Shown here: piece by piece, positions 1-14,230 of the stretch
How positions within the stretch are numbered: the stretch's first letter is position 1
Layout: each line of letters starts with the position of its first letter
NCBI RefSeq assembly: GCF_003437035.1
Contig: NZ_QSRL01000022.1
Location: forward strand, 1-14,230
Length of the DNA stretch: 14,230 nt
Direction: 5' to 3'
DNA from: Collinsella sp. TF08-11AT
Lineage (GTDB): Bacteria; Actinomycetota; Coriobacteriia; Coriobacteriales; Coriobacteriaceae
Notes under the pieces: generated by a model
What the model was told of the DNA's origin: nothing
Databases searched by the model: none
The model's input: only the letters and a program-made list of their open reading frames with translations
Position numbers and translations under genes: made by a program

Positions 1-41
1 CTTCCTCTGAGAAGTTCGCGAAGCCCACTTCTCAGAGGAAG
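1..41 (-). terminator. Hairpin downstream of xfp, probable terminator
   Basis: Bases 1-15 and 27-41 form a perfect 15-bp inverted repeat around an 11-base loop. It lies 44 bases past the xfp stop codon in the direction of xfp transcription, where a rho-independent terminator would sit. The T-tract that should follow on the minus strand falls outside the window, so terminator function is inferred from the stem and its position only. Confidence 0.5.
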
Positions 42-84
42 GCGCCCGCCCGGAGGCGGCCCCAGCGCGAGACCGTCCCGGATG

Positions 85-2613
85 CTATTCGTTGTCGCCG
101 GCAGTTAGCTGCGTTGCGGAGAGCGCGCCGTCGGCTGCGGTTGCGGCAGCGGCGTCGGGCCAGACCCAGTCGGTAAAGGCCGGGTGATCGAAGCCCTCGT
201 CGCACGCGAACTCAAAGGCGTCGGTGCGGAAGGCCTCCCACTCATCAATCTGCTCGGCAAACTTATCGGCGTCGACCATGCGCAGCACGTCGGCGGCCAA
301 AGCCCAACGGTCCATGTTGTTCAGGCGCAGCATGTCGAACGGCGTGGTCGTGGAGCCCTTCTCCTCGTAGCCGTGGACGCGGAACGCGTCGTGTCCGGGG
401 CGGTTCCAGATCAGGCGGCGAATCGTGCCGGCATAGGCGTGGAACACGAAGAGCACGGGCTTCTCGCCGCAGCCAAACAGCTCAGCCCAGCGCTCGTCGC
501 TGATGGCTTGGTCGTTCTCGCAGACGTTCTGAATCTTGAGCAGATCGACCACGTTGACGAACCATACCTTGATGCCCAACTCGCGCAGCATATCGGTTGC
601 AGCCAGAGCCTCGAGCGTCGGCACGTCGCCACAGGTGGCGACCACGACGTCGGCCTCGGTGAGTGAGTCAGCGGTCGATGCCCACTTCCAGGTTGCGGCG
701 CCCTCGGCGAGCTCGGCCTTTGCCTCGTCGACCGTCTGGAAGGTCGGGGCGGGCTGCTTGCCGCAGAAGATCGCGTTGACGCAGTCGGTGGACTGGTAGA
801 CGCGCTCGGCCACGGCGAGAGCCATGTTGGCGTCGGCCGGATAGTAGGCGTTCACGATGTGCGTGTCGTTGGCCTTGTTGAGTAGCAGGTCGATAAAGCC
901 GGGGTCCTGGTGCGAGAAGCCGTTGTGGTCCTGACGCCAAACATGGCTCGACAGCAAAATGTTGAGGCCGCTGATGGGGGCACGCCACGGAATCTCGCGC
1001 TTGGTAGCCTCGAGCCACTTGCAGTGCTGGTTGACCATGGAGTCGACCACATGGACAAAGCTCTCGTAGGAGCTCCACACGCCGGAGCGGCCGGTGAGCA
1101 CATAGGCCTCGAGGAAACCCTCGCACTGGTGCTCGGACAGCTGCTCGACAACCTTGCCGGAGCCAGCGAGCAGCTCGTCGTTGGCCTCGTCCTCGTAGAA
1201 GCCGGCATCCCACTGCTTCTTGGTCACCTTATAAGCGGCCTGCAGGCGGTTGGACGCGGTCTCGTCGGGACCGAAGATGCGGAAGTCGTCCATGTTCTTG
1301 GCCAGAACGTCGGCAGTGTACTCACCAAAGACGCGGGCAGCCTCGGTGGAGCCCCAACCATGGCCCTTCTCGGCGACGGGAATCTCGTGGGCGTGGATAT
1401 CGGGCAGCTCGAGCTCGCGACGCACCTTGCCGCCGTTCGCGTTGGGGTTGGCGCCAATACGCAGCTCGCCGGTCGGCATAAAGGCCGTTACCTCGGGGCG
1501 CACCTGGCCCTCGGGCGTAAAGAGCTCCTCGGGCTTGTAGGAGCGCAGCCACTCGCGCAGCACGCGGAAGTGCTCGTGAGTGTCCTTGGCGCTTGCCAGC
1601 GGCACCTGATGGGCGCGCCAGGAGTCCTCGGTCTTCTTGCCGTCGATCTGCTTGGGGCAGGTCCAGCCCTTGGGCGTACGGAACACAATCATGGGGTAGG
1701 CCGGGCGGACCACGGTCTCGCCCGCGGCAGCCTGGGCCTGCGCGGTGGCCTTGATGTCACAAATCTCGTCAAAGACCTGCTCAAACAGGGCGGCAAAGCG
1801 CTCATGGATGCTTGCGTGGCTCTCGTCGTCAAAGCCGGCGATAAAGAAGTGCGGCTTATAGCCCATACCCTCAAAGAACTTGGTGAGCTCTTCGTCGGAC
1901 ACGCGGGCGAGGATGGTGGGGTTGGCGATCTTGTAGCCGTTGAGGTGCAGGATCGGCAGGACGATACCGTCGGTTGCCGGGTTCACGAGCTTGTTGGACT
2001 GCCAAGAAGTCGCGAGCGGGCCGGTCTCGGACTCGCCGTCGCCCACCACGGCCACGGCCAGCAGGCTCGGGTTGTCCATGACGGCACCGTAAGCGTGGCT
2101 GAGCGTGTAGCCGAGCTCGCCGCCCTCGTGGATGGAGCCGGGCGTCTCGGGCGCAAAGTGGCTCGGGATGCCGCCGGGATAGGAGAACTGGCGGAAGAAC
2201 TTCTGCAGGCCGGCCTCGTCATTGGTGATGTCGGGGCGGATCTCGCGGTAAGTACCGTCGAGCAGCGACTGGGCGGTGCCGGCGGGGCCACCGTGACCCG
2301 GGCCCATCAAGAAAATGGCGTTCTGGTTGTGATCGGCAATAAGGCGGTTGACGTGGCCGAACAGGAAGTTGATGCCAGGCGTGGTGCCCCAGTGACCAAC
2401 CAGGCGATGCTTGACGTCCGGACGACCGAAGTCGCGCGCCTCGCCAGTCTTATCGTCGACAAAGTCAGCGCGCATCAGCGGGTTGGAGCGAAGGTAGATC
2501 TGACCGACGGACAGGTAGTTCGAAGCGCGCCAATACAGATCGACACCCTCGAGCTCGGAAGCCGGCACCTCGTGCCCCAGCTTTTGCCACGGCGTCCCCA
2601 GTGTTTTAGCCAT
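85..2613 (-). CDS. xfp: Xylulose-5-phosphate/fructose-6-phosphate phosphoketolase
   Basis: This thiamine-diphosphate enzyme splits xylulose 5-phosphate, and often fructose 6-phosphate, with inorganic phosphate to give acetyl phosphate plus glyceraldehyde 3-phosphate or erythrose 4-phosphate. It is the key cytosolic step of the phosphoketolase (bifid) pathway. The 842-residue length is slightly above the usual 790-825, and the excess appears to be an Ala-rich C-terminal tail. Visible family signatures are [15 protein letters not shown] near residue 27, [10 protein letters not shown] at 74-83, GPGHGGPA at 104-111, the TPP/Mg motif GDGESETG at 191-198 followed by [11 protein letters not shown] at 223-233, [15 protein letters not shown] in the middle, and SHQDPGF. 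The ATG at 2613 is preceded by AAGGGA at good spacing. The LacI-type gene upstream on the same strand and the twin operators between them suggest carbohydrate-responsive control. The identification is secure. Substrate preference cannot be read from the sequence. Confidence 0.97.
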
Positions 2614-2671
2614 TGTTTATGTCCCTTCGCTGCGCGGTCACCCTCCGATACGGCAACCATTCGTTGGGACT

Positions 2672-2677
2672 AGTATA
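2672..2677 (-). promoter_or_regulatory. Putative -10 element of xfp promoter
   Basis: On the minus strand this reads TATACT, about 58 bases upstream of the xfp ATG. No good -35 hexamer is present at 16-18 bp spacing, and the first operator palindrome (2683-2694) lies in the spacer. A promoter whose core is covered by an operator fits repression by a LacI-family protein. Confidence 0.5.
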
Positions 2678-2682
2678 TTTGC

Positions 2683-2715
2683 TAAAACGTTTTATCATGG
2701 TGAAAAAACGTTTTA
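2683..2715. promoter_or_regulatory. Twin LacI-family operators in the xfp promoter
   Basis: TAAAACGTTTTA at 2683-2694 is a perfect 12-bp palindrome. AAAACGTTTT at 2705-2714 is a perfect 10-bp palindrome with further symmetric bases outside it. Each has the central CpG typical of LacI/GalR-family operators. Their centres (2688.5 and 2709.5) are 21 bp apart, two helical turns, so two dimers would bind the same face of the DNA. A weaker half-site, GGCAAAACGC, begins at 2740. The likely ligand is the product of the adjacent LacI-family gene, but this is inferred from proximity and motif type. Confidence 0.7.
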
Positions 2716-2817
2716 CCATCTCTATCAAACACACCAATTGGCAAAACGCAACATTCACCTGCGGCATTACCTGTCACAGATGCTCCACATTCGATCTTCT
2801 CGAATTGATAAACATGT

Positions 2818-3846
2818 TTAGTTGTATTTAGTAAGTTCTAGAACGCTGCCCTTCACAATGAGAGCAGGCTCCAGAACCACTTCTTCGGCACGCCTGCCGC
2901 CCTTGCCGGCAAGACGTTTGGACATGCAACCAAAGGCATGCTCGGCAAGCACGCCCGGATCCTGCTCGATCGCGGTCAGCGCCGGCTCAAAGAGAACGTC
3001 GGCAGCCGAGTTGTCATAGCTCACCACCGAGATATCGCCCGGGATGCTCTTCCCCATCTCGTGCAAGCGCTTGAGCAAACCGAGGGCGATGTTGTCCGAA
3101 CTTGCGAACACGGCGGTGGCATCGGTTGCGAGCACCGCCTCCGAGGCCTCGTAGGCACTCGGAATGTAGTACTCGCTCTCGAACTCCAAGCGCGCGTCGA
3201 TGGGCAGGCCAACCTCGCGCAGCGCGCGTTCATAGCCGGCAAGTCGCTTGCGGCCCGTATTGGAGCGGCGCGCGTTAACCAGGCAGGCGATGCGACGGTG
3301 GCCCTGCTCAATCAGATATCGGGTAGCCATGTAGCCACCCATCTCGTGGTCGAACATCACCTTGTCGCACTCGAGCCCCTCAATGGCACGGTCGACCATT
3401 ACGGCCGGGATGGGCAGGTGGCTGACTTCTTCGCGCAGGGCGCGGTCGTCGGAGAACTCGTCACCTACCACCAGGAAGACGCCATCAACGCCGCGCGTCA
3501 CCAGCTGGCGCAGCAGCTCCAGATCGTCATCGGCGCTTCCGCCCGAGCTGGTAATAAAAAGCGCGTAGCCGTCCTCGCGGCAGCGCTTTTCCAAGCTGCC
3601 GGCGAGCGAGGCGAAAAAGCGGCTCTCGATGTTGGGGACGATAAGGCCCAGGGTGCGCGACTCGCGCATGACCAGGCTGCGCGCGATCTGGTTGGGAACA
3701 TAGTGATTGCGCGCCGCAACCTCCTTGATGAGTTTGCGGTTTTCTTCCGAGATGCGACAGGGCCGATTATTGAGAACAAGCGAGACCGACGAAGGGGAAA
3801 GCCCCACCTCTTGGGCAATCTGCTTGAGGGTGACTTTGTTGGCCAT
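2818..3846 (-). CDS. LacI/GalR-family transcriptional regulator
   Basis: A 342-residue regulator of standard family length. The N-terminal helix-turn-helix is classic (VTLKQIAQEVGLSPSSVSLV, residues 5-24). It is followed by the hinge region around YVPNQIARSL and then a periplasmic-binding-like effector domain (LGLIVPNIESRFFASL; VMVDRAIEG; DISVVSYDNS near the C-terminus). I chose the ATG at 3846 because a strong GGAAGGAG ribosome-binding site precedes it and the HTH begins a few residues later. The open frame continues far upstream, but only as the antisense of murB. The gene is divergent from murB and immediately upstream of xfp on the same strand. Twin AAAACGTTTT palindromes lie just past its stop in the xfp promoter, and another palindrome overlaps its own promoter. 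The effector is unknown and is plausibly a sugar or sugar phosphate. Confidence 0.93.
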   Translation of the reverse strand: MANKVTLKQIAQEVGLSPSSVSLVLNNRPCRISEENRKLIKEVAARNHYVPNQIARSLVMRESRTLGLIVPNIESRFFASLAGSLEKRCREDGYALFITSSGGSADDDLELLRQLVTRGVDGVFLVVGDEFSDDRALREEVSHLPIPAVMVDRAIEGLECDKVMFDHEMGGYMATRYLIEQGHRRIACLVNARRSNTGRKRLAGYERALREVGLPIDARLEFESEYYIPSAYEASEAVLATDATAVFASSDNIALGLLKRLHEMGKSIPGDISVVSYDNSAADVLFEPALTAIEQDPGVLAEHAFGCMSKRLAGKGGRRAEEVVLEPALIVKGSVLELTKYN

Positions 3847-3881
3847 CTCGCTCCTTCCGGGTTTACGCGCAATCTCTTGAA

Positions 3882-3925
3882 AGTATAGCGACTGCCCCTC
3901 TACCTCGATGATAAACACTTTATCA
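3882..3925 (-). promoter_or_regulatory. lacI-type promoter with overlapping palindrome
   Basis: On the minus strand TATACT (3882-3887) is a plausible -10 for the regulator gene, 36 bases before its ATG. Just upstream, TGATAAACACTTTATCA (3909-3925) is a perfect 7+3+7 palindrome covering the -35 region. It shares the GATAAA half-site edge with the xfp operators but has a different centre, so it may be an autoregulatory site or the target of another regulator. Confidence 0.4.
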
Positions 3926-3980
3926 ATCCGGTGGACGGCAGTTTTATCGCCGCCAGCGCACCAAATACATCTGGGTGGGG

Positions 3981-3986
3981 TATATT
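3981..3986 (+). promoter_or_regulatory. Possible murB -10 element
   Basis: TATATT lies 43 bases upstream of the murB ATG in the 183-base gap between the divergent lacI-type gene and murB. No convincing -35 hexamer precedes it, so this is a tentative promoter call. Confidence 0.3.
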
Positions 3987-4029
3987 GCAATCGATTGATG
4001 AGAACGACCACCAAAAGGCGGATATTCGT

Positions 4030-4992
4030 ATGCACGAGAACGACTTTTTTAACGAGGACCTGCTGTGCGCGCTCGCTGGCGTTGCCGGCGAGGACAACGT
4101 GTTGATGAGCGAGCCCATGCGCGAGCACACCACGTTTAAGATCGGTGGCCCGGCCGATGTCTTTGTCACGCCCGATACCGAGCAGGGCCTCGTCGCCACG
4201 CTTGACACCTGCTATCGCTGTGATCTGCCGCTCACCATCGTGGGCAACGGCTCGGACCTGCTCGTCGGAGACAAGGGCATCCGCGGCGTCGTCGTGGCGC
4301 TGGGCGAGGGCCTCTCCGACATTACGGTCGACGGCACGCACGTCACGGCGGCAGCCGGCGCCTTGCTTTCCGATGTCGCAGCCGCGGCAGCCGAGGCCGG
4401 CCTTACCGGCATGGAGCCCATCTCGGGCATTCCCGGATCGGTCGGCGGTGCCTGCTACATGAACGCCGGAGCATACGGCGCTTGCATGGCCGATGTGCTG
4501 GAGTCCGTGCGCGTCTACAAGCCCGCCCGCATGCTCGACGACGGCACCCGCGGTAGCGGCAGCATTATTGAGTTCGATGTCGATGAGCTCAACCTGGGCT
4601 ATCGCAAGAGCCGCATTGCCGACGACGGTTTCGTCGTGCTTTCGGCCACTTTCAATCTCGCCCCGGGCAACGCCGCGACGATCAAGGCCGACATGGACGA
4701 CTACCGCCAGCGCCGCGAGGACAAGCAGCCGCTCGACATGCCGAGTGCCGGCTCCACCTTCAAGCGCCCCGAGGGCTACTTTGCCGGCAAGCTCATCATG
4801 GACGCCGGCCTGCGAGGACACGCCATCGGCGGCGCGCAGGTGAGCGAAAAGCACTGCGGCTTCATCGTCAACGCCGACCACGCCACCGCCGCCGATGTCG
4901 ACGAACTCATCCGCCACATCCAAACAACCGTCAAAGACCAATTCGACGTAGACCTCGAACCCGAAGTCCACCGAGTCGGCGAATTCCTCTAA
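4030..4992 (+). CDS. murB: UDP-N-acetylenolpyruvoylglucosamine reductase MurB
   Basis: This cytosolic FAD/NADPH enzyme reduces UDP-GlcNAc-enolpyruvate to UDP-MurNAc, the second step of peptidoglycan precursor synthesis. The 320-residue product shows the FAD-binding signatures TTFKIGGPADVF (34-45), GNGSDLLVGDKG (72-83) and EPISGIPGSVGGACYMNAGA (129-148). The C-terminal substrate domain follows, with PSAGSTFKRP (238-247) containing the conserved catalytic serine (Ser242), VSEKHCGFIVN (271-281), and LEPEVHRVGEF near the end with the conserved acidic residue. The compact type II form, lacking the extra tyrosine loop of the E. coli enzyme, fits a Gram-positive host. The frame is open upstream to 3931, but the ATG at 4030 is preferred: AAGG precedes it and the earlier residues do not look like MurB. 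It ends in a clear terminator. Confidence 0.96.
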   Translation: MHENDFFNEDLLCALAGVAGEDNVLMSEPMREHTTFKIGGPADVFVTPDTEQGLVATLDTCYRCDLPLTIVGNGSDLLVGDKGIRGVVVALGEGLSDITVDGTHVTAAAGALLSDVAAAAAEAGLTGMEPISGIPGSVGGACYMNAGAYGACMADVLESVRVYKPARMLDDGTRGSGSIIEFDVDELNLGYRKSRIADDGFVVLSATFNLAPGNAATIKADMDDYRQRREDKQPLDMPSAGSTFKRPEGYFAGKLIMDAGLRGHAIGGAQVSEKHCGFIVNADHATAADVDELIRHIQTTVKDQFDVDLEPEVHRVGEFL

Positions 4993-4996
4993 AAAA

Positions 4997-5028
4997 GAAG
5001 GCCCCGAAAGGGGCCTTCACTTTCTTTT
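4997..5028 (+). terminator. Rho-independent terminator of murB
   Basis: GAAGGCCCC (4997-5005), a GAAA tetraloop and GGGGCCTTC (5010-5018) form a perfect 9-bp stem, followed by a T-rich stretch (ACTTTCTTTT). It begins four bases after the murB stop. A-rich sequence on the left side means it could also act on transcripts from the opposite strand. Confidence 0.9.
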
Positions 5029-5070
5029 ATTCAGACAACCAATCCGGTGCGTAGCGCCCCGAACCCGAGA

Positions 5071-5206
5071 GGGCCGCGTGCCCGCCCGCAATATATTTGA
5101 TTGATCGCGAGTTCCGCACGCAAAGAAGGCCACTTAATGTGGCCTTCGTCTTGCGCAGGACTGCCCGAGCAGGCAATCAAATATATTGCGGGCGGGCACG
5201 CGGCCC
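5071..5206. repeat. Perfect 33-bp inverted repeat around a hairpin
   Basis: Bases 5071-5103 and 5174-5206 are exact reverse complements over all 33 positions and enclose 70 bases. Each arm has a very GC-rich outer part (with GCGTGCCCGCCCGC) and an AT-rich inner part (AATATATTTGATT). The enclosed segment carries its own 9-bp hairpin. The whole fills the gap between the convergent murB and the PcsB-like gene. I see no target-site duplication at the outer ends and no coding capacity, so it may be a miniature element, a long bidirectional terminator, or a product of inverted duplication. Confidence 0.9.
5119..5155 (-). terminator. Probable terminator of the PcsB-like gene
   Basis: GAAGGCCAC (5125-5133), loop TTAAT and GTGGCCTTC (5139-5147) form a perfect 9-bp stem, with a secondary CGCAA/TTGCG stem outside it. 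On the minus strand the stem is followed by a short T-rich run (CTTCTTT). It lies about 70 bases past the stop of the gene at 5215-6420 and is nested inside the 33-bp inverted repeat. Confidence 0.6.
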
Positions 5207-5214
5207 AGTCGGCT

Positions 5215-6420
5215 TTACGACAGCGCAATACCGCCAAGCCAGCCCCAACGCACGCCAGAGCCAGTACCATAAAAGCTAATGAACGAATCAAGCGACTTAG
5301 ACGTAATGGCGCCCTCGTTGCTCATTACGATGCCGCCGCCAACGTAGATACCCACATGACCGTAGATAAGGCCCGGAGCACCCGTGCCGCTGTGCGAGGA
5401 ATCGGCCACGATCATGCCCACCTGCAGCGCCGAGCGGTCGGAGCTATAGCACCAGGCGTTGAACATGTCACACGCGTTGCCGCCAAAATAGCCCACGCCG
5501 GCATTGCGGAAGACATTGGTAACCCACGCCGCGCACCAGTTCTGACCCGGCGAAGGCGTGGAGTAGCACGCGTTGACGACGGCCTGCTGCTTGCCCGAGC
5601 CGGCATTCTGCTGCGGAGTTCCGGGCGCATACGATCCACCGCCCGAGCTCGAACCACCCGAGTAGGAATTGTTCTTGTTCGCGGCGGCCGCGGCAGCGGC
5701 GGCCTTCCTAGCGGCCTCCTCGGCCTGGGCGGCAGCGAGAATCTCGGAATCGCGCTGAGCCATGAGCTCCTTGACGTCGTCGGAAAGACCGTTCAGCACG
5801 GTCTGGACTTCTTGCTGCTTGGCCTGCATATCCTGCATCTGAGCCGTCTGCTGGTCCTTGAGTTTCTCCAGGTTGGCCTTTTGTGCTTCGAGCTCGGTCT
5901 TCTGCGCGTCGAGCTCAGCCTGAATCGTCTGGATATCCTCGATGGCATCGCGGTCGCTCTTGTTGATCTTCTCAACGTAATGCGCGTTGGCGACGAGTTC
6001 CTCAAACGAGCCAGAGGCCAGCAGCAGCGACAGGATGTTCGTACCGCCGGACTTGTAGCTGGCGGCCACGCGATCGGAAAGGTCGTTGCGCTTCTTCTTG
6101 AGCTCGGCCTTCTTTTCATCGATCTGGGCCTGCGTGTCGTCAATCTTGCCCTGGACATTCTCGATGTCGTTGAGGGTCTGGGCATTCTTGTTGGCCAGCG
6201 CCGCATACTCATTTGCGATGCTGTCGAGCTGGGCCTGAACCTCGTCGAGTTGGGCCTGGGCGGCATTCAGTTTGTCGGTGGTTTCTTGACTGGCCTCAGC
6301 CGCATGGGCGCGGGCGGGCAGGCCAAAAAGAACAGCCGCAGAAGCGGCGCCGAAAAGAGCCTTAAGGGCAGTGCGGCGCGAAAGCTCCTGCGTAAAGATG
6401 GAATCGTTGTTTGGTGACAT
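5215..6420 (-). CDS. Secreted PcsB-like coiled-coil peptidoglycan hydrolase
   Basis: This is a predicted exported cell-wall hydrolase, probably acting in cell separation. The 401-residue product starts with a twin-arginine-like signal (SRRTALKAL at 14-22, hydrophobic stretch, AHA cleavage site near residue 40). A long coiled coil follows (about 45-230). It contains the PcsB-type segment TNILSLLLASGSFEELVANA (127-146). Next comes an Ala- and Gly/Ser-rich linker (225-275). The C-terminal NlpC/P60- or CHAP-like cysteine peptidase/amidase domain has candidate nucleophile Cys296 in NWCAAWVTNVF and catalytic His355 in GHVGIYVGGG. The ATG at 6420 has GGAG just upstream. It is divergent from galE and convergent with murB. 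NlpC/P60 (endopeptidase) and CHAP (amidase) cannot be separated with certainty by eye. Confidence 0.88.
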   Translation of the reverse strand: MSPNNDSIFTQELSRRTALKALFGAASAAVLFGLPARAHAAEASQETTDKLNAAQAQLDEVQAQLDSIANEYAALANKNAQTLNDIENVQGKIDDTQAQIDEKKAELKKKRNDLSDRVAASYKSGGTNILSLLLASGSFEELVANAHYVEKINKSDRDAIEDIQTIQAELDAQKTELEAQKANLEKLKDQQTAQMQDMQAKQQEVQTVLNGLSDDVKELMAQRDSEILAAAQAEEAARKAAAAAAAANKNNSYSGGSSSGGGSYAPGTPQQNAGSGKQQAVVNACYSTPSPGQNWCAAWVTNVFRNAGVGYFGGNACDMFNAWCYSSDRSALQVGMIVADSSHSGTGAPGLIYGHVGIYVGGGIVMSNEGAITSKSLDSFISFYGTGSGVRWGWLGGIALS

Positions 6421-6688
6421 ATGTACTCCGTTACATGCTTATTTATATGTCGCTCAACTCAAACATATTAACGCACATCGCGCTTGTCCCAACTATTTCC
6501 ACGAACGGCTGGAAAAGCATGGTCAGCGGCTCGCAAATACGTCCCACACCAAAGGTAAGGATTATGCAAATAACACCCTATGAGTACGTTAACATCAATC
6601 CTCTGGTTTTCCTGCCCCGCGTGTTTTGGGCGCCCCCAGCTGCGCTATACTCCCCTCAAGAAGTGTTCCTGATTCGATAGGAGACTAC
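6421..6688. other. Divergent promoter region, PcsB-like gene / galE
   Basis: This 268-base AT-richer gap contains no convincing gene. For galE, TATACT at 6646-6651 is a plausible -10, with only a weak TTTTGG-like -35 about 16 bp upstream. For the hydrolase gene on the minus strand, a TTGGGA / TAATAT pair with 16-bp spacing is possible, as is a TATAAA closer to the ATG. All are weak matches. I saw no riboswitch-like structure. Confidence 0.4.
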
Positions 6689-7750
6689 ATGTCCAAAGCA
6701 CTCGACCCCAAAGACACCTGCGTCCTCGTTACCGGCGGCGCCGGCTTTATCGGCTCGCACACCGTCGTTCAGCTGCTCGAGGGTGGCTACCAGGTTGTCG
6801 TCGTCGATGACCTCTCCAACTCCAGCGCCGTTGCCATCGACCGCGTCAAGACCATCGTGGGCGACGAGGCCGCCAAGAACCTCACCTTCTACGAGGCCAA
6901 CGTGCTCGACCGCGATGCGATGAACAAGATCTTCGATACCCACCAGATCGACCGCGTCATCCACTTCGCCGGCTTTAAGGCCGTTGGCGAGTCGGTGAGC
7001 AAGCCCGTCGAGTACTACCACAACAATATCGAGAACACCCTGGTGCTCATCGATGTCATGCGCAACCACGGCTGTAAGTCCATCATCTTCTCGAGCTCTT
7101 CGACCGTCTACGGCGATCCGGACAATCCGCCCGTCACCGAGGAAGACCCCAAGAAGCCCGCGACCAACCCCTATGGTTGGACCAAGTGGATGATTGAGCA
7201 GATCCTCATGGACGTCCACACCGCCGACCCCGAGTGGGACGTCGTGCTGCTCCGTTATTTCAATCCCATCGGTGCCCATCCGTCGGGCCTGATCGGCGAG
7301 GACCCCAAGGGCATCCCCAACAACCTGGTGCCCTACGTCGCCCAGGTCGCCGTCGGTAAGCTCGAGGCCGTTCAGGTCTTTGGCAACGACTACCCCACCC
7401 CCGACGGCACCGGCGTGCGCGACTACATCCACGTGTGCGACCTGGCATCCGGTCACGTTGCCGCCCTCAACTGGATGAACGGCAAGACCGGCGTCGAGAT
7501 CTTTAACCTGGGCACCGGCACCGGCACCTCGGTACTCGAGGTCGTCGCCGCCTTCTCCAAGGCCTGCGGCAAGGAGCTGCCCTACGTGATTCGCGAGCGC
7601 CGTGCCGGCGATATCGCCGCCAACTGGTGCGATGCCTCCAAGGCCGAACGCATGATGGGCTGGAAGGCCCAGTACGACATCGCGGACATGTGCCGCGACA
7701 GCTGGAATTGGCAGAGCCATAACCCCAACGGCTTCGCCGACGCCGAGTAG
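6689..7750 (+). CDS. galE: UDP-glucose 4-epimerase
   Basis: This NAD-dependent cytosolic enzyme interconverts UDP-galactose and UDP-glucose, serving the Leloir pathway and cell-envelope sugar supply. The 353-residue product is an extended short-chain dehydrogenase/reductase. It has TGGAGFIGS (15-23, the NAD-binding glycine motif), FSSSSTVYG (134-142, catalytic Ser/Thr region), YGWTK (162-166, the YxxxK catalytic motif), RYFNPIGAHPSGLIGEDPKG, and TGVRDYIHVCDLASGHV. The length is slightly above the usual 330-340. The frame is open to 6626, but the ATG at 6689 is chosen because AGGAG lies 5-6 bases before it and the Rossmann motif then sits at the normal distance. It appears monocistronic, with a terminator at 7864-7896. 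Confidence 0.96.
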   Translation: MSKALDPKDTCVLVTGGAGFIGSHTVVQLLEGGYQVVVVDDLSNSSAVAIDRVKTIVGDEAAKNLTFYEANVLDRDAMNKIFDTHQIDRVIHFAGFKAVGESVSKPVEYYHNNIENTLVLIDVMRNHGCKSIIFSSSSTVYGDPDNPPVTEEDPKKPATNPYGWTKWMIEQILMDVHTADPEWDVVLLRYFNPIGAHPSGLIGEDPKGIPNNLVPYVAQVAVGKLEAVQVFGNDYPTPDGTGVRDYIHVCDLASGHVAALNWMNGKTGVEIFNLGTGTGTSVLEVVAAFSKACGKELPYVIRERRAGDIAANWCDASKAERMMGWKAQYDIADMCRDSWNWQSHNPNGFADAE

Positions 7751-7759
7751 CCACTCCCC

Positions 7760-7797
7760 CGTGCTAGGTTTTGTGGCATGCCTCAAAACCTAGCACG
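7760..7797. repeat. 14-bp perfect hairpin with a GGCATGCC loop
   Basis: CGTGCTAGGTTTTG (7760-7773) and CAAAACCTAGCACG (7784-7797) pair perfectly. The 10-base loop contains the self-complementary GGCATGCC. No T-tract follows, so it is not a standard terminator. It lies 9 bases past the galE stop and has the same plan as the next hairpin. Confidence 0.85.
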
Positions 7798-7830
7798 CGA
7801 CATGCTCGGCACATGCCGCTTCCTGCATGG

Positions 7831-7861
7831 GTAGATTTCTAGACATGTCCCAAAAATCTAC
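7831..7861. repeat. Second CATG-centred hairpin
   Basis: GTAGATTT (7831-7838) pairs with AAATCTAC (7854-7861). The loop contains the palindrome GACATGTC. Like the preceding hairpin it places a purine-CATG-pyrimidine palindrome at the loop centre and A/T-runs at the inner stem ends. It lies immediately upstream of the terminator stem at 7864. Confidence 0.7.
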
Positions 7862-7863
7862 TG

Positions 7864-7896
7864 GCCCCGGCCTCCAATGTGAGGTCGGGGCTTTTT
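7864..7896 (+). terminator. Rho-independent terminator downstream of galE
   Basis: GCCCCGGCCTC (7864-7874) pairs with GAGGTCGGGGC (7881-7891) over 11 positions, with one G-T pair and a 6-base loop, and is followed by five T residues. It is the strongest terminator in the window and is the likely end of the galE transcript. The accessory DNA begins right at its T-tract. Confidence 0.88.
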
Positions 7897-8113
7897 AGGA
7901 ACTCGTTCTCGAGCTCGAGCTCGCGCATGCACTTGCGGCCGCCGCGACCGGGTGGTTGGTCAGCTCCTTCTTCCTGACCGTCACCCATCTTCCCAGGGTC
8001 TTCTCGTTGATGCCGAGGTCGGCTGCCACTTGGGCGATGGGCTTCCCCGACGCGGCGGCGAAGTCTGCGGCCTCGGCGCGGTACCCCGCTGTGTAGGAGG
8101 GCCCGTCTGCCAT
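7893..8113 (-). pseudogene. IS3-family orfA transposase remnant, frameshifted and truncated
   Basis: From the ATG at 8113 (GGAG just upstream) the product carries the classic helix-turn-helix of IS3-type OrfA proteins (GKPIAQVAADLGINEKTLGR, then WVTVRKKEL). After about residue 50 this frame becomes low-complexity. A different frame resumes the expected OrfA leucine-zipper segment, RELELENEFLK, around 7895-7928. The reading frame was therefore lost between about 7930 and 7970. The remnant stops abruptly at the galE terminator T-tract, where the usual continuation and all of orfB are missing. It is a dead fragment and marks an old insertion and deletion event. Confidence 0.82.
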
Positions 8114-8406
8114 GACTGACACTCCTTTCTTTTTGGCGCTGAAACGATTATCGCCGCTCAACGCCATTCCTCTAAGTCAAGTGTCCTTGAATACGATACA
8201 GTTCAAATGGACGAGGAGAATCTGGCGCTCCTCTCGATGAGCCCGGAGAGGTCCCTGGTCGTCACCTTCCCCCGCGCGAACGCGAAGCGGACGGCGGCGA
8301 GCCATGTCCTCACCGCGCGTTCCATTTAGGGAGTCCTCGAGAAGTCGATCTCTCTGTGCGATAATCGAGCTATTGAGTCTCGCGAGTTTAGAGCTGGTGA
8401 TATGCA
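8114..8406. other. Gap upstream of the ATPase gene, possible orphan ORF
   Basis: This gap probably holds one end of the IS3-type element. On the minus strand GGACACTTGAC (near 8176-8186) resembles an IS3 terminus, but I cannot define it. On the plus strand a 40-codon frame starts at ATG 8207 and ends at TAG 8329. It is open upstream without a stop through the presumed IS end and contains VVTFPRANAKRTAASHV. I do not recognise it. It could be the tail of a gene cut by the insertion, or chance. The promoter of the ATPase gene lies at the right end. Confidence 0.3.
8337..8365 (+). promoter_or_regulatory. Putative extended -10 promoter of the ATPase-nuclease operon
   Basis: TGCGATAAT (8357-8365) matches an extended -10 element, TGn followed by GATAAT. 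A TCGAGA hexamer (8337-8342, four of six matches to TTGACA) lies 17 bp upstream. It sits 42 bases before the TTG start of the ATPase gene. Confidence 0.5.
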
Positions 8407-9705
8407 TTGAAAATCAAGATGAAAAACATCGGCAGGGTCGCTGAGGCCGATATCGAGATTAATGGTATTGCCGTGATCGCCGGGGAGAACGGGACGGGGA
8501 AAAGCACGGTTGGAAAAGCGCTTTATGCGGCCTTCAACAGCATGTCCGATTCGGAGAACAAAATCGACCGCATGAGGCGCAATAGTGTTGAGCGCGCCAT
8601 CAGGAAGGCATATGTGGGAAGCCCTCTCGACTCCACGTCTCGCCACAGGCGAACTGCTGGAAGAATGAATAGTTTCATCGACAGGGTTTTTTCGGGCGAG
8701 TGCACGAGGGACGAGCTTATTGATGAGATAAAGGAGTATTACGGGGAGGAGATCTCCCGTGAGATCGAATCCGATTTCACGAATGGCGTAGCAGGAGTTG
8801 CCGATCAGATTATCGAGATCATGGATATCTCCGATGATGAGGTATTTCGTGCGATTGCGACAAACAGGTTCCGAAGCGAGTTCAACGGCCAGATCAATTC
8901 GGTTTTCGGCGAAGAGCCCGGGAAGGTCGAACTCCAGATAAAGGACGCATCTACGGTTTTCTCGGTTGCAAGTGACGAGGTGGCGGAGGTGCACGATAGG
9001 AGGGTTTTGCGATTCAGGGCGCATTATCTGGACGACCCGTTCCTGATCGATTCTCTCGGAGGACCCTACGGCCCCGCTTTTCGGTTCAAGCCCCTCCTTG
9101 GACACCAGGAGGAGCTGCGGCAAGATTTGATTCAGGCGACCATCCGTAACGATGACAGCGAGTCCTCGCTGTTCGAAGAGATCGCGAAGGAGCGACACCT
9201 GAAGGTTCTCATGGACAAGGTTTCCTCCTTATGTCCGGGGCATTTCGAGAGGAGCGAAAGTCGCGGTCACCTTACGTATCTCGAAGAGGGCTTCGCTCGG
9301 GGGTTGGAGCCTGGGAACCTTTCTGCTGGCTTGAAGACGTTCGCCATCATGAAGGTGCTCTTGAAGTCCGGCGCGCTAGATGCCGGAGGGACTATTATCC
9401 TCGATGAACCCGAGATTCATCTTCATCCTGCATGGCAGCTGGCCTTCGCCGAGATAATCGTGCTGCTCCAGAAAGAGCTCGGGATGCACGTCTTAATGAG
9501 CACCCATAGTCCATATTTCCTGAATGCGATCGAAGTGTATTCTAAGAAGCACGCTGTTGATGGATTGTGCTCATATTATCTTGCGGAGACCTGCACTGAT
9601 GGACGCTCTCGCTTTGCCGATATAACCGGCTCGACTGAGGTCGCCTACGAGAAGCTGGCGGCTCCTTTTGATACGCTTGAGAGGGAGGAGTACGGCCTTG
9701 AGTAG
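8407..9705 (+). CDS. OLD/RecF-like AAA ATPase, first gene of a putative defence operon
   Basis: A 432-residue ABC/SMC-type ATPase. Walker A is GENGTGKS at 26-33. A long helical insert follows. A signature-like LSAG lies at 305-308. Walker B is TIILDEPEIHLHP, with Asp333 and Glu334. The H-loop is STHSPYFL at 365-372. This order is that of the AAA_15/AAA_21 (OLD-nuclease ATPase) group, but there is no C-terminal TOPRIM domain, so any nuclease activity must come from a partner. That partner is probably the next gene, which overlaps by 8 bases. The TTG at 8407 is taken as the start because GGTGA lies 6 bases upstream and the beta-strand KIKMKNIG begins there; an ATG at 8419 is the alternative. 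GC is lower than in the core genes. A role in anti-phage defence is inferred from architecture and from the flanking IS debris. Confidence 0.85.
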   Translation: MKIKMKNIGRVAEADIEINGIAVIAGENGTGKSTVGKALYAAFNSMSDSENKIDRMRRNSVERAIRKAYVGSPLDSTSRHRRTAGRMNSFIDRVFSGECTRDELIDEIKEYYGEEISREIESDFTNGVAGVADQIIEIMDISDDEVFRAIATNRFRSEFNGQINSVFGEEPGKVELQIKDASTVFSVASDEVAEVHDRRVLRFRAHYLDDPFLIDSLGGPYGPAFRFKPLLGHQEELRQDLIQATIRNDDSESSLFEEIAKERHLKVLMDKVSSLCPGHFERSESRGHLTYLEEGFARGLEPGNLSAGLKTFAIMKVLLKSGALDAGGTIILDEPEIHLHPAWQLAFAEIIVLLQKELGMHVLMSTHSPYFLNAIEVYSKKHAVDGLCSYYLAETCTDGRSRFADITGSTEVAYEKLAAPFDTLEREEYGLE

Positions 9706-10366
9706 CGACCTGTGCGCCTCCTGCCCTCATCCGAACTCTCCCGCGGTGCCAGATGGCAGCGATGGTTGCTCCCGTTGCAGGACCTGTATCCTAAGGGACT
9801 GCACGTCGACCATCTCCAAAACATCCAGAGACGGGAGCGTCTCTCTTGTGGATGACGATTTGCCTGTTGTCAATTTTGACTCTGTTAAAGAATGCTACTG
9901 CAAGAAGGTCAATAGGTGGATGCAACTCCCGCGCTCCGCCGATGCGCTGTATTGCGATCGGGAAACGTTATATCTAGTCGAATTTAAAAACGGCAGTCTG
10001 AAGGAGACGCTGGGGAAGAGGCTCAATCCCAAGGATGACGAAGAGCTTGGTATCAATCTTGGCCAAAGGGACGCCCTCATCGAGAAGTGCAAGGACAGCG
10101 TTTTGATCTGCTCGGACCTGTGGGGAAAGAGGACGAGATGGTTTCGCGAGCACTGCGTCTTTGTTTTGGTATACAACGAGGACAAGAACAAGACCGCGTT
10201 GAAGCGGGTTGCCAGCTCGATTAGGAAAAAAGCGCGTTTTGGGCTTCCTGACAAATTGAAAGGTTTTTGCGTGAAGGATGTCTTGACGCTAACCGAAAAG
10301 GAGTTTTCGACATCGCTCCTTTCAACTTGGCGAGACGCAGAAGAAATCGCGGAGGTCGACGCGTAG
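9698..10366 (+). CDS. Cys-cluster protein with PD-(D/E)XK nuclease-like core
   Basis: A 222-residue protein of no family I can name. The N-terminus has six cysteines at residues 6, 9, 24, 27, 30 and 35 (CX2C-X14-CX2CX2C-X4-C), suggesting a zinc or Fe-S site. Then comes a helix (NFDSVKECYCKKV, with Glu65) and the segment SADALY...LYLVEFKNG. Its Asp82, Glu95 and Lys97 match the D-(X)n-E-X-K core of PD-(D/E)XK nucleases. A basic helical half follows, with a strand VFVLVYNEDKN. The TTG at 9698 is chosen because GGGAGGAG lies 7 bases before it, inside the ATPase gene, giving TTGAGTAG overlap with the ATPase stop. The frame is open upstream to 9668. Tight coupling implies the two proteins are made together and probably form a complex. 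Nuclease activity is inferred from the motif only. Confidence 0.78.
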   Translation: MSSDLCASCPHPNSPAVPDGSDGCSRCRTCILRDCTSTISKTSRDGSVSLVDDDLPVVNFDSVKECYCKKVNRWMQLPRSADALYCDRETLYLVEFKNGSLKETLGKRLNPKDDEELGINLGQRDALIEKCKDSVLICSDLWGKRTRWFREHCVFVLVYNEDKNKTALKRVASSIRKKARFGLPDKLKGFCVKDVLTLTEKEFSTSLLSTWRDAEEIAEVDA

Positions 10367-10479
10367 GAGACCGAAAAGCATCCGGTGGCTATTTGCTCCC
10401 GATATCGATCGTTCGTCTGCAGTCGGTTTTCTTTCCGCTGCGCCCGCCAGTTTGCGATGAGTCGCGCACCGTGTGAAGC
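10367..10479. other. Gap after the nuclease gene, no terminator seen
   Basis: I see no gene and no stable hairpin with a T-tract here. A small CCGTGT/ACACGG stem at 10469-10488 is too weak to call. Together with the transposase remnant and the stretch after it, nearly 900 bases between 10366 and 11265 contain no intact gene. Confidence 0.5.
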
Positions 10480-11064
10480 TCAACACGGATGAAATACAAA
10501 TATAATCCCCCCCTTGCACTGTGTTGATAAATATTGCTCGTCGAACTCATCTGAACTGGGCTTTCTTGCATAGAACTGCCTGAACCTGAGCGTTTTCGGG
10601 TATCGCATTGCCCGATCGAGCACCATCGCGACCTTCTCAAGCTTGTCCTCGGGCGGACTCATAGCCACAGCCCCGCATGTCGTCCCGGTTGGAGCCGGGA
10701 TGAGCCCTCAGGAAGCACTGCATGAAGTAGCGCATCCGGTTCACGGGCCCCAGCGGGTTCTGGCCGTCGGGAACGCCCTTGAGCAGCTTCGCGTTGTAGT
10801 GCTGGCTCTTCAGTGACAGATTGTTGACGGGAGCCGTGTGGCGCCCGGCTCCATGTCGTGGATGAGCGTGGAGCCGGGCGCCACACGGCTCCCGAACGTC
10901 GCCAAGGTCTTCGCCCTGCTTGTCTTGCCAAGGCCCTCCCGGATGAAGATTGAATTGCCTGGCTCATCGCAGCCGAGCGCGACACGGCCTCTACCCGAGA
11001 CCATCATCTCTACACATAGCCCATCATTCGACAAGAACGCGCAGTTTGTCCTGCATAGGCGCAT
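10480..11064 (-). pseudogene. Decayed DDE transposase (IS1595-like?), several frameshifts
   Basis: Three minus-strand frames together give one protein. From 11064 the first carries CDEPG and, after GSRVAPGS, IHDME, both with candidate catalytic aspartates. From about 10840 a second carries QHYNAKLLKGVPDGQNPL and NRMRYFMQCFLRAHPG. From about 10668 a third carries PPEDKLEKVAMVLDRAM and KTLRFRQFYARKPSSDEF. The order HDME, then VNRM..., then the C-terminal RAM/FRDFY-type segment resembles transposases of the IS1595/ISXO2 type that I associate with Coriobacteriia, but the family name is uncertain. At least two frameshifts and a stop make it inactive. The N-terminal zinc-ribbon part is not recognisable upstream. 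One frameshift lies inside a perfect inverted repeat at 10827-10894. Confidence 0.72.
10827..10894. repeat. 26-bp perfect inverted repeat inside the transposase remnant
   Basis: Bases 10827-10852 and 10869-10894 are exact reverse complements over 26 positions, with a 16-base loop. The right arm encodes the expected GSRVAPGS part of the transposase on the minus strand. The left arm sits exactly where the reading frame is lost after IHDME. This suggests the left arm was rewritten by copying from the right. Confidence 0.9.
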
Positions 11065-11096
11065 GGTGTCCCCCTCCGCCGCAAGAGGTGAGCAAA

Positions 11097-11138
11097 AGAG
11101 AGGCTCCCCTCGCCACTACCGGACAAAGGGACCTCTCT
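11097..11138 (-). terminator. Weak hairpin downstream of the ABC transporter gene
   Basis: On the minus strand AGAGAGG (11138-11132) and CCTCTCT (11103-11097) can pair, with partial pairing inside, and a short T-run follows. It is about 130 bases past the ABC transporter stop and could terminate the maturase-transporter operon. It could equally be part of the end of the decayed insertion sequence. The stretch 11139-11264 shows no gene I can support. Confidence 0.3.
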
Positions 11139-11264
11139 GGGGAAACACGCTATAAAACCTTCTTGCCGGGCGGTCGAGTACAGCACCGACGGCGTACCCG
11201 TGGAGACCTACCCAGAGCCCACGCCATTTCAAGTTTCTTGGTCTTCAACGCCACAATCCGATAA

Positions 11265-12899
11265 TCATCCAGCCGTCGAAATGACCTCGTCACAGGCGGC
11301 AAGCATCTCCTCGTCATGAGTGACAACGATTACAATATGGTCTCTCTTAATTTCATGAAGCAATTTGATCAGCGCGCCTCGACTCTTCGCATCAAGTGCT
11401 GAGGTCGGTTCATCAAAAAGCATAACGTCCGGCGATTTCAACAGCTGTCTCACAATTGCAATCTTTTGCTTCTCGCCGCCGGACACCCCTCCTTTCCCGC
11501 CGTCAAGCATCGCCGTTGCCCCGTTCTCCACAGAAGCAACCATTTCGTCTAGCCCCAATATGACAAGCATCCGATTCAGCTTATCCATCTCGTAATCATC
11601 AGAAAGCAGCGTAAGATTATCGAGAATCGTCCCCTCAACGATAGGGGGTTCTTGCTCCGTAATGCTGACTCGACACCGCCGCAATGCATATCGATCGATG
11701 CAACGCTGTGACACCCCGTTGTAGCGAACGGCCCCTTCTGTGTCATCTGGATATAGCCCCAATATCACTGACAGCAGCGAGCTCTTCCCCGAACCATTCG
11801 GCCCCGAGATTCCATATAGCCGACCCCTGGAAAACGCGAGCCCCTCAATGCTTAACGCGACCCTTTCCGCCCCTGGATAACGTAGCTTGATGTTCTCTAG
11901 ACGGATTTCCTCAATCGGACCAAGCGCCAATTTGCCATTCGCTTCCACCGGGACATCCCAAATTCTTTTCAGCCGCTCATAGCATACGCGATTAGTCTGG
12001 TAATCCCTTCCCCAGCCCAACAAATACTGTACCGCTGAGCTTAAGTTCGAATAATATCCAACAGCAGTCACGAGAAAACCAGGCAACAGTCTCCCGCCCA
12101 TCACTTCAACCGCGCCCACAGCAAGAAGACATCCTTGAGCGGCGGAAGCGACCAACGCGTTGCCAAAGGTAAATCTAGACCCTACTTCCTGATTTGCTCT
12201 CATCGTTGGATAGAGCCCATTAAAAGCTTCGACCAGTACAGCGCGGGACCTATCGAACAAAGCATGTTTGCGGATGAAATCAACTTTCTCCAACTGATCT
12301 TGTAGACAGGAAAAAAACCTCGCGCTCTGCTCTTGTACGTCAAAACTTCTCTCAAACAGCCTTGCGCGTGAAACCGCATAAAAAGCGGCACTCGCTGCCG
12401 CAAGAACAAGGCAGACCACACTCAACTTGATATTCAGGCTACCGAGAACAAACAGGGCGGACAAAAGGGTGATAACGTTGCTTGAAACCCCCACAACCGA
12501 GTTGATTACGAAGATGACAAGGTCATTAGCGTCGTGATTGATTTGCTGGTTATAATACGACGCGTTGAAGCCCTCGAAGAATGCCTGGGGAAGGTGCTTC
12601 ACGTGCTCAAGCGTATCCGCATTTAAGCCGAACCCCGCATGCGACTGAAGGTTGATGTACAGCATCTCTGAGCAATACACTAGTCCCGCTCGAACCGCTT
12701 GGACCGCAACCAAAATAAGGCAACAAACGAGAACGGCGGCAAGATCGGCGCTGGCCGGCATCGCCAATCGGTTTACCACTATGCCGGTAAGAAAGGGACC
12801 CGCAAGCGCAAGCAGCCCGACCAAAACTGTTACGACAAGATAGGCGTAGAATCGACCGCCCAGTATATATTTTCTACAGAGATTAAGCATCAGCCTCAT
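11265..12899 (-). CDS. ABC half-transporter (membrane domain fused to ATPase)
   Basis: A 544-residue exporter-type ABC protein, likely a homodimer in the cytoplasmic membrane. The first 300 residues hold about six hydrophobic segments (for example YLVVTVLVGLLALAGPFLTG at 20-39). The ATPase domain has Walker A GPNGSGKS (366-373), a Q-loop at TEQEPPIVEG (Gln416), signature VSGGEKQ (472-478), Walker B VMLFDEPTSALD (492-503) and the H-loop VTHDEE (His528). There is no N-terminal C39 peptidase domain, so it would not cleave a leader peptide itself. The ATG at 12899 has GGGG just upstream and overlaps the end of the upstream maturase gene by 17 bases; a GTG at 12911 is possible. Position suggests export of the maturase product, or self-protection. 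This is inferred from context. Confidence 0.9.
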   Translation of the reverse strand: MRLMLNLCRKYILGGRFYAYLVVTVLVGLLALAGPFLTGIVVNRLAMPASADLAAVLVCCLILVAVQAVRAGLVYCSEMLYINLQSHAGFGLNADTLEHVKHLPQAFFEGFNASYYNQQINHDANDLVIFVINSVVGVSSNVITLLSALFVLGSLNIKLSVVCLVLAAASAAFYAVSRARLFERSFDVQEQSARFFSCLQDQLEKVDFIRKHALFDRSRAVLVEAFNGLYPTMRANQEVGSRFTFGNALVASAAQGCLLAVGAVEVMGGRLLPGFLVTAVGYYSNLSSAVQYLLGWGRDYQTNRVCYERLKRIWDVPVEANGKLALGPIEEIRLENIKLRYPGAERVALSIEGLAFSRGRLYGISGPNGSGKSSLLSVILGLYPDDTEGAVRYNGVSQRCIDRYALRRCRVSITEQEPPIVEGTILDNLTLLSDDYEMDKLNRMLVILGLDEMVASVENGATAMLDGGKGGVSGGEKQKIAIVRQLLKSPDVMLFDEPTSALDAKSRGALIKLLHEIKRDHIVIVVTHDEEMLAACDEVISTAG

Positions 12900-14160
12900 T
12901 TTGCCCCGCACCCCGTTTTGCCGTATTCATCATCTGGGAGAGCAGCATTTTTTGCTCGGCATCATACCGGAAGGAAACGCAACGTTTCCCCTCACCGTTT
13001 AAGGCGTGGTTGGGGCACCCTCCCATGCACATGGGAAAAGCAAAGCACTCTTGGCATTCCGGGTCATCCGGCTCATATGCCATCCAGTTAATCATGTTCT
13101 TGCTCAACATTGGCGGCTCGAAAATAGTTCCGACCCTCCGCTCCTTCATTCCAATGTCATCCCAGCACTTATACAAATCTCCGACGGGATCAACCACGTA
13201 CGAGTTGATTCCAACGGCGCAACATATCCCGAAATTCGTCCCACCAAAAGGTTGAACTTTGAAGCCCCGCGCAATTGCCCTTTTATAAAACTCAGTCTCC
13301 TCATACGAGAACTCTTTTACAGTAAAGCAGTGGCTGTCGTTCGCACATACCTGATTGATATCGTCAACAGGGGCTAAATAGAAGTGAACCTTATTCATCA
13401 GGCCATTTAGCTCGAGATAATCCAATAGCTCTTGAGCGGCCTCGATGTTGGTCTTGTCGACGTTGCTCCTTATCGAAATATCGATGATGTCGGCACACTC
13501 TTTGACGTTCTTGAGAATACGTTCGTATGTAGGGCTTCCGTCGTGAAGAATCCTTCTCGAATCGTGATCCGACTTCGATCCATCTATAGTCACTTGCGCG
13601 CTCGTCACACCACATGCCGCGAGCCTCCTTGCAACATCAGGCGTCAGCAGATAGCCATTTGTCACTATCGATGCGGAATATTCACACGTTGGCCCCACGA
13701 CATCTTTCAGATCCGACGTAATCCGTTCGATCATCTTCATTCCGAGCAGAGGCTCGCCGCCGTACCATCCAACTGAGAGACTTGCGATACCAGGATAGTA
13801 ATCTTTCACGAACTTGGAGAGCTGTGTCAAAACCTCCTCGCCCATCGTCGTGTACGCCTGTCCCTTTTCATAGCAGTAGGGACAGCAAAAGTTGCAAGCC
13901 ATCGTTGGCGCAATGGTAAGGGACAGAGCAGTATTCGCAAAGCGCGCGGCGCGACTTTGCAACCTGATCTCCCCAAGCTCGTCCCTCTCCTCATTGACTA
14001 GGATGCCTCCCCTTATCAGCTCCGCGACAAGATCATCGGCATCCCGAACGTCCCCTTCTTGAATCCTTTTGAATTTCTGCGCGTATTCCGGATTTAACGA
14101 CAGGATGCCGCCGGTTCGCGCATTCATGATAAGAAGACTTCCGTTATGTTCATGCACCAC
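12883..14160 (-). CDS. Radical SAM/SPASM peptide-maturase-like enzyme
   Basis: A 425-residue enzyme expected to bind S-adenosylmethionine and several 4Fe-4S clusters and to modify a ribosomal peptide. An N-terminal strand region (HEHNGSLLIMNARTGGILSL) resembles the peptide-recognition part of such maturases. The radical SAM core has CX3CX2C at Cys89, Cys93 and Cys96 (CNFCCPYC) and GGEP at 134-137. The C-terminal SPASM domain has Cys313 or 314, Cys332, then CQECFAFPMCMGGCP (369-383) and Cys394. Start choice is uncertain. GTG at 14160 follows the stop of an upstream frame by one base, without a clear ribosome-binding site, which fits translational coupling. The codons before it (SQFNV) look homologous too, so a CTG at 14175 or a frameshift is possible. 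Members of this group also include enzymes acting on proteins rather than RiPP precursors. Confidence 0.88.
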   Translation of the reverse strand: MVHEHNGSLLIMNARTGGILSLNPEYAQKFKRIQEGDVRDADDLVAELIRGGILVNEERDELGEIRLQSRAARFANTALSLTIAPTMACNFCCPYCYEKGQAYTTMGEEVLTQLSKFVKDYYPGIASLSVGWYGGEPLLGMKMIERITSDLKDVVGPTCEYSASIVTNGYLLTPDVARRLAACGVTSAQVTIDGSKSDHDSRRILHDGSPTYERILKNVKECADIIDISIRSNVDKTNIEAAQELLDYLELNGLMNKVHFYLAPVDDINQVCANDSHCFTVKEFSYEETEFYKRAIARGFKVQPFGGTNFGICCAVGINSYVVDPVGDLYKCWDDIGMKERRVGTIFEPPMLSKNMINWMAYEPDDPECQECFAFPMCMGGCPNHALNGEGKRCVSFRYDAEQKMLLSQMMNTAKRGAGQNEADA

Positions 14161-14161
14161 A

Positions 14162-14230
14162 TTAAATTGCGACAGTTTGGTTGATTTTCAATCTCAACGC
14201 AACAGCCTGAACGGACCCCGCGTTTCCGCA
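14162..14230 (-). CDS. 3' end of a possible upstream gene (partial)
   Basis: A minus-strand frame enters at the window edge and ends with TAA at 14162-14164, one base before the GTG start of the radical SAM gene. The visible C-terminus ends in ALRLKINQTVAI. The one-base spacing would allow translational coupling. Only 22 codons are visible, and another frame here is also open (with several cysteines, ending at 14124), so this call is tentative. It could be the tail of a precursor peptide or of an unrelated gene. Confidence 0.3.
   Translation of the reverse strand, partial: CGNAGSVQAVALRLKINQTVAI

Follow-up and report, generated by a model that had tools for sequence, protein, structure and literature searches.

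A Collinsella strain carries a conserved gene pair of an OLD-type ATPase and a predicted PD-(D/E)XK nuclease, probably a phage-triggered growth-shutdown module

What function is served by two overlapping genes of Collinsella sp. TF08-11AT, one encoding an ATPase and the other a small protein that is nearly invisible to the common profile libraries? The two genes, termed A and B here, lie in a stretch of 14,230 nucleotides (RefSeq assembly GCF_003437035.1, contig NZ_QSRL01000022.1, positions 1 to 14,230, forward strand), the whole of which is called the window. An earlier note on this DNA had proposed the pair as an undescribed defence system in which the ATPase controls a nuclease. The reading favoured here, with a probability of roughly 0.6, is a two-gene module of the OLD-ABC ATPase plus PD-(D/E)XK nuclease kind that is triggered by phage and shuts down growth abortively. 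Its basis comprises the gene order and overlap, the motifs and fold of the ATPase, the D/E/K site of the nuclease, strict pairing, co-evolution and a strain-specific location.

The two genes are conserved as a unit. With one genome taken for each species, 32 loci were found, and viral contigs added 3; the hosts are spread over Lachnospiraceae and other Clostridia, Oscillibacter, Selenomonads, Desulfovibrio, Treponema, Fibrobacter, Aminicenantes, and Coriobacteria. The co-occurrence that the earlier note proposed to check is indeed found, as an A homologue stands immediately upstream of B on the same strand in 34 of the 35 loci, the exception being a locus (L022) where B sits at the contig edge. 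The 34 paired loci include two Collinsella copies, L028 and L029, that are nearly identical to the window's. Furthermore, a sample drawn with hidden Markov models (14 further loci examined) has A upstream of B in all 13 where B was detected, some of which repeat earlier loci; at locus L058 of this sample, a partial match near the contig start, neither gene was recovered. The 8-base overlap with a 222-residue protein described for the window is present, and overlaps occur in 28 of 34 tabulated pairs, the other 6 having a gap of at most 7 nucleotides (nt); this table leaves out L039 and L051, which belong to other families, and its B starts were picked nearest the A stop, which favours short distances. 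Additionally, the pairwise distances of A and B are correlated (r = 0.871 over 32 pairs, against a maximum of 0.497 in 2000 permutations), to which shared host ancestry could contribute.

Gene A encodes an ATPase of the OLD type without a TOPRIM domain, as first described. All four expected motifs are present, the protein matches AAA_21 (8.3e-21) and AAA_15 (3.8e-14) in Pfam, and TOPRIM is absent among the 17 Pfam families listed up to E 1. The chain ends 65 residues past the H-loop histidine. Its best NCBIfam model is retron PtuA, at 43.9 bits against a cut-off of 500, the PHROGs match is a family of unknown function (3e-40), and the PADLOC match is PD-T4-4_A (2.5e-22). PtuA/Septu chains are the nearest PDB matches by Foldseek. 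The fold is also common to the heads of Rad50, SMC, and RecN, which would suit a RecF/SMC-like accessory pair serving DNA repair or replication of mobile elements outside defence. Such a role is very improbable, since the pair is patchily present (the order has it in 3 of 197 genomes, two other families in 5 of 101 and 7 of 200 genomes, each count including a genome chosen for having the pair) and occupies a chromosomal island as well as mobile elements.

The prediction of B as a nuclease is carried by its conserved residues. No match to B was obtained in Pfam or NCBIfam at E <= 1, and its best matches in PHROGs and PADLOC are weak (E 0.018 and 0.0053, respectively). Homologue searches gave 26, 131 (120 listed), and 57 proteins, and conservation was counted over 177 homologues aligned to the window's B, about 20 of which are its close relatives, with gaps excluded. 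Residues E95, F96, and K97 are kept in all 176 homologues without a gap there, and D61 in all 175; D82 is kept in 175 of 177 and K130 in 174 of 175. The D82, E95, and K97 noticed at the outset are thus present in B, and all three are kept in 174 of the 176 homologues covering the site, so that the loss envisaged as a refutation did not occur. The two proteins without D82 at the aligned position (P0022 and P0110) may reflect truncation or alignment effects. Conservation of the predicted nuclease site is far above chance. The predicted structure of B shows a PD-(D/E)XK-like core, each fold match being weak by itself; in a PDB sequence search B alone gave a single match at E 0.65, and the B profile gave none at E <= 5.

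The six N-terminal cysteines are likewise present in B, and they characterise a much smaller group. At least three of them occur in just 20 of the 177 homologues; among these 20, C6, C9, C30, and C35 are found in all, C24 in 18, and C27 in 19. The remaining members of the alignment begin after most of the cysteine stretch; the cluster, although real, is therefore an addition specific to one lineage. In the Collinsella clade it would probably bind zinc and tune substrate or partner binding outside the core mechanism. Other Coriobacterial B proteins (L034, 3075-3947; L061 and L062, both of genome G520) have 290 residues; that of L034 carries a long insertion after its EFKNG motif, and the corresponding insertion in the window's B is shorter.

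The kind of operon described above has already appeared in print. WonAB of the Vibrio cholerae WASA-1 prophage is an operon of an OLD-ABC ATPase and a PD-(D/E)xK nuclease that was tested against phages; protection needs both genes and is lost in ATPase-motif mutants and in WonB K71A (PMC12137116). Excess WonB is toxic only alongside active WonA, and translation is apparently halted while DNA stays intact (PMC12137116). The same authors relate WonAB to PD-T4-4 and to the 'OLD-ABC ATPase + Novel REase' operon of Krishnan et al. 2020, an in-silico class with an exemplar from Anaerovibrio lipolyticus (as cited in PMC12137116). Moreover, a 2026 survey of BREX describes OLD-ABC ATPases paired with PD-(D/E)XK nucleases (PMC12839542). 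With these publications the kind is already known, and the window's pair is a further example of it. By the same accounts, the earlier suggestion that such a partner is missing from all known systems does not hold where the kind is concerned: WonAB, the Novel REase class, and PD-T4-4 are described as pairs of an ATPase with a PD-(D/E)XK or restriction-fold protein. A match to an already named system was found for the kind, and the exact family may belong within WonAB; exactly this A/B family has no name in the libraries searched, and no paper naming it was found in the open-licence literature.

The likeness to WonAB, drawn from the published description of WonA and WonB (AWB73975.1 and AWB73976.1), extends to several details. 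Both have an ATPase gene followed by an adjacent nuclease gene, and both have the Walker, signature, and H-loop motifs, here invariant across 30 A proteins. Both have the PD-(D/E)xK residues, the nuclease lysine being essential in WonB, and the spacing from Walker glutamate to H-loop histidine is 33 residues in each (E300-H333 in WonA, E334-H367 in A). The catalytic lysine differs in position, at 71 in WonB and 97 in B; among B relatives without the cysteine extension it lies at 72-90 where an EFK match was found, and at 97 in L034. WonAB homologues are also mainly Gram-negative, according to PMC12137116. The listed homologues of the present pair include no Vibrio-named entry, most of one 57-protein set being without names. 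The 'OLD-ABC ATPase + Novel REase' class has the same architecture, judged from the description of its exemplar (SHI83489.1 and SHI83462.1). The family with 5 carriers among 101 genomes is that of G077, a Selenomonadaceae metagenome-assembled genome; Anaerovibrio belongs to this family as well.

On this basis, a mechanism can be proposed for the pair. A would dimerise on ATP through its conserved motifs and carry B on its C-terminal region; after sensing an infection product it would license B to cut nucleic acid, most likely RNA of the translation machinery (possibly tRNA or rRNA), thereby stopping the cell. RNA is considered the most likely target because of the analogy with WonAB, PARIS, and Septu. 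Control of the nuclease by the ATPase, as originally suggested, was found for WonAB and agrees with the conservation of the pair as a unit; defence activity itself is inferred. The same sensor-effector pair could instead act through DNA degradation, with B as a DNase on phage or host DNA. The PDB matches of the B model include many DNA-cutting restriction enzymes (BstEII, PspGI, EcoO109I, and FokI) plus an McrBC entry, and 4 of 34 diverse B proteins weakly match a Cas4 model (best 1.1e-4), but WonAB, the best-tested analogue, spares genomic DNA and apparently stops translation (PMC12137116), and no domain for DNA recognition was found in B. A DNase is accordingly a rather unlikely alternative. 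Equally doubtful is an elaboration of the RNA-targeting scheme, in which the pair would represent an unnamed, widespread clade of ATPase-gated PD-(D/E)XK effectors whose trigger and RNA target would be its own, hosted by Clostridia, Selenomonads, Coriobacteria, Desulfovibrio, Treponema, Fibrobacter, and Enterobacterales, and in which the zinc-binding cysteine module of Collinsella would redirect the nuclease to a new substrate, for example one particular tRNA.

The mobile locations of some relatives raise the question of an addiction function. On a 5.9-kb mobilisable Klebsiella plasmid (L049, 3001-4966), a member of the family has its ATPase gene starting right behind the end of the replication protein gene, and B of an Enterobacterial plasmid is a member of the window's B family (hhalign 3.3e-22). 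The phage-collection record MT835532.1 (L003, 3286-4452) holds the same pair, with A 36% identical, adjoining a MobL relaxase; given this relaxase, the bacteriophage-labelled record could represent an element capable of conjugation or mobilisation. A scan of viral sequences with protein B alone gave no relatives, plasmid tblastn with B no matches, and E. coli genomes searched with the Klebsiella-plasmid pair no copy. The small plasmid and the relaxase would fit a role of the pair in keeping mobile elements stable, as a toxin-antitoxin or addiction module with B neutralised by A. This is improbable, as B is open where A is a fragment (L006) or split across two frames (L008 and L021), so that cells apparently tolerate B when A is not intact, unless sequencing errors are involved; besides, WonA is required for WonB toxicity (PMC12137116).

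The growth-shutdown module proposed here was also compared with other named systems. PD-T4-4 is an ATPase with a PD-(D/E)XK partner (PMC10952713), and this architecture is shared by the present pair, whose A matches PD-T4-4_A. Assignment to PD-T4-4 was rejected, as no PD-T4-4_B match was found for B (E <= 1) or for 34 members (E <= 0.1), the existence of such a model in PADLOC being unconfirmed. At the L. salivarius megaplasmid locus L051 (3008-4946), a PD-T4-4_A-like ATPase (4.3e-36) has a partner with an EVK motif, which is unrelated to B by hhalign. Septu and retron PtuAB resemble the pair in that A is closest to PtuA/Septu chains, but PtuB is an HNH nuclease; no HNH is among the 24 Pfam families listed for the 34 members, and Septu was rejected. 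PARIS was set aside as no DUF4435/TOPRIM Pfam family was found for the pair or among those listed for the 34 B members, and Gabija as A has no TOPRIM match. HEC-02, a PADLOC candidate, is likewise an operon of an ATPase and a small nuclease, with an EYK motif. The HEC-02B models are the nearest in PADLOC to B, 13 of 34 diverse B proteins matching one of them at E <= 0.1 (best 1.5e-6), and the B profile aligns with an HEC-02B protein at an hhalign probability of 72% (E 3.3e-5) with the catalytic residues aligned. Membership was rejected, since the pair scores 78 + 14.8 bits (HEC-02A, HEC-02B) against 418 + 227 for a strong pair (L039), whose ATPase is shorter than A by 90 residues. HEC-02 is, as judged by these profile comparisons, a remote relative of the pair. 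In open-licence papers the string HEC-02 occurs only in a nano-silver paper.

The pair deserves attention for two reasons. Pfam and NCBIfam contain no match for B, and its cross-matches in PADLOC and PHROGs are weak, yet the protein is strictly paired with A across several phyla; pipelines using these libraries would overlook what is probably a defence module of common gut bacteria. Furthermore, an RNA target, if confirmed, would place the pair with PARIS, Septu, and WonAB among the OLD-ATPase systems that halt translation, suggesting a general sensing role for the ATPase, to which different nucleases can be coupled.

In Collinsella, the pair resides in a strain-specific island (Table 1). B is carried by 2 of 65 genomes of the family (G001 and G035). 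The galE-like gene left of the pair is matched in 43 of 43 genus genomes, 41 of them strongly and two (G016 and G039) by a short weak match. The island was compared over 13 of these 43 genomes, 11 without the pair plus the two carriers. The nearest genome in the collection searched shares 64% of the window's sampled words. In all 11 genomes without the pair, similarity to the window ends at 7750/7751 and gives way to sequence common to them, whereas G001 and G035 match the window up to 14178; the displaced common sequence returns about 14 kb (G001) and 15 kb (G035) past the galE-like gene, adjoining a 4-alpha-glucanotransferase gene in G001. This break and the later resumption place the pair in a strain-specific island, whose size in the window would be roughly 14-15 kb to judge from the two carriers. 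The bracketing by insertion sequence remnants claimed earlier is confirmed on the left only, where a transposase fragment lies; on the right, two open reading frames (ORFs; 10810-11064 and 10659-10985) have no Pfam match at E <= 0.001.

Table 1. Positions of the gene pair, its motifs, and the surrounding island in the window
Feature	Position	Strand	Remarks
Left part of presumed strain-specific island	7751-14230	.	Starts at end of galE-like gene and continues past window; comparison with Collinsella loci
Transposase helix-turn-helix fragment left of pair	7895-8167	-	HTH_Tnp_1, 1.6e-5 (Pfam)
Gene A, OLD/SMC/PtuA-type ABC ATPase without TOPRIM	8407-9705	+	TTG start, 432 residues
Walker A, GENGTGKS (K32)	8482-8505	+	G31, K32, S33 invariant in 30 aligned A proteins
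ABC signature, LSAG (residues 305-308)	9319-9330	+	S306, G308 invariant in 30 aligned A proteins
Walker B, DEPEIHLHP (residues 333-341)	9403-9429	+	D333, E334, P335, E336, H338, H340, P341 invariant in 30 aligned A proteins
H-loop, STHSP (H367)	9499-9513	+	H367, S368 invariant in 30 aligned A proteins
Purine-rich GGGAGGAG, probable ribosome-binding site of gene B	9683-9690	+	Inferred from sequence; 7 nt ahead of B start
Gene B, predicted PD-(D/E)XK nuclease	9698-10366	+	TTG start, 222 residues; 8-nt overlap with A (9698-9705)
Six-cysteine N-terminal extension of B (C6, C9, C24, C27, C30, C35)	9713-9802	+	
Predicted catalytic core of B, D82 to E95-F96-K97	9941-9988	+	Conserved residues

Promoter-like sites number 2 against 1.3 expected, and terminator-like sites 1 against 3.1. 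Neighbouring genes were surveyed at 29 loci (107 neighbours, at most two on each side, ORFs below 90 or above 1000 residues excluded), without L028, L025, and L018, which are the host copy or near-duplicates, and with none yielded by L026. Among the first 25 of 128 Pfam families, AAA_21 occurs in 6, Methylase_S in 3, and N6_Mtase in 2; among the first 25 of 96 PADLOC families at E <= 1e-20, Specificity_I, mad3, and mad5 occur 3 times each. These counts have no control and are thus not used as support for a defence-island context. The island also holds an export-type ABC transporter gene (11265-12911, minus strand) and a gene for a radical SAM/SPASM maturase (12883-14160, minus strand; best NCBIfam TIGR04463, 1.7e-90, under its curated cut-off), and the two form a probable modified-peptide cluster at 11265-14160. 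To the right of the pair, a perfect 26-nt inverted repeat with a 15-nt spacer spans 10828-10894, where the G001 copy runs on as a longer open frame; the repeat may be what is left of a rearranged transposon, or it may stem from the assembly.
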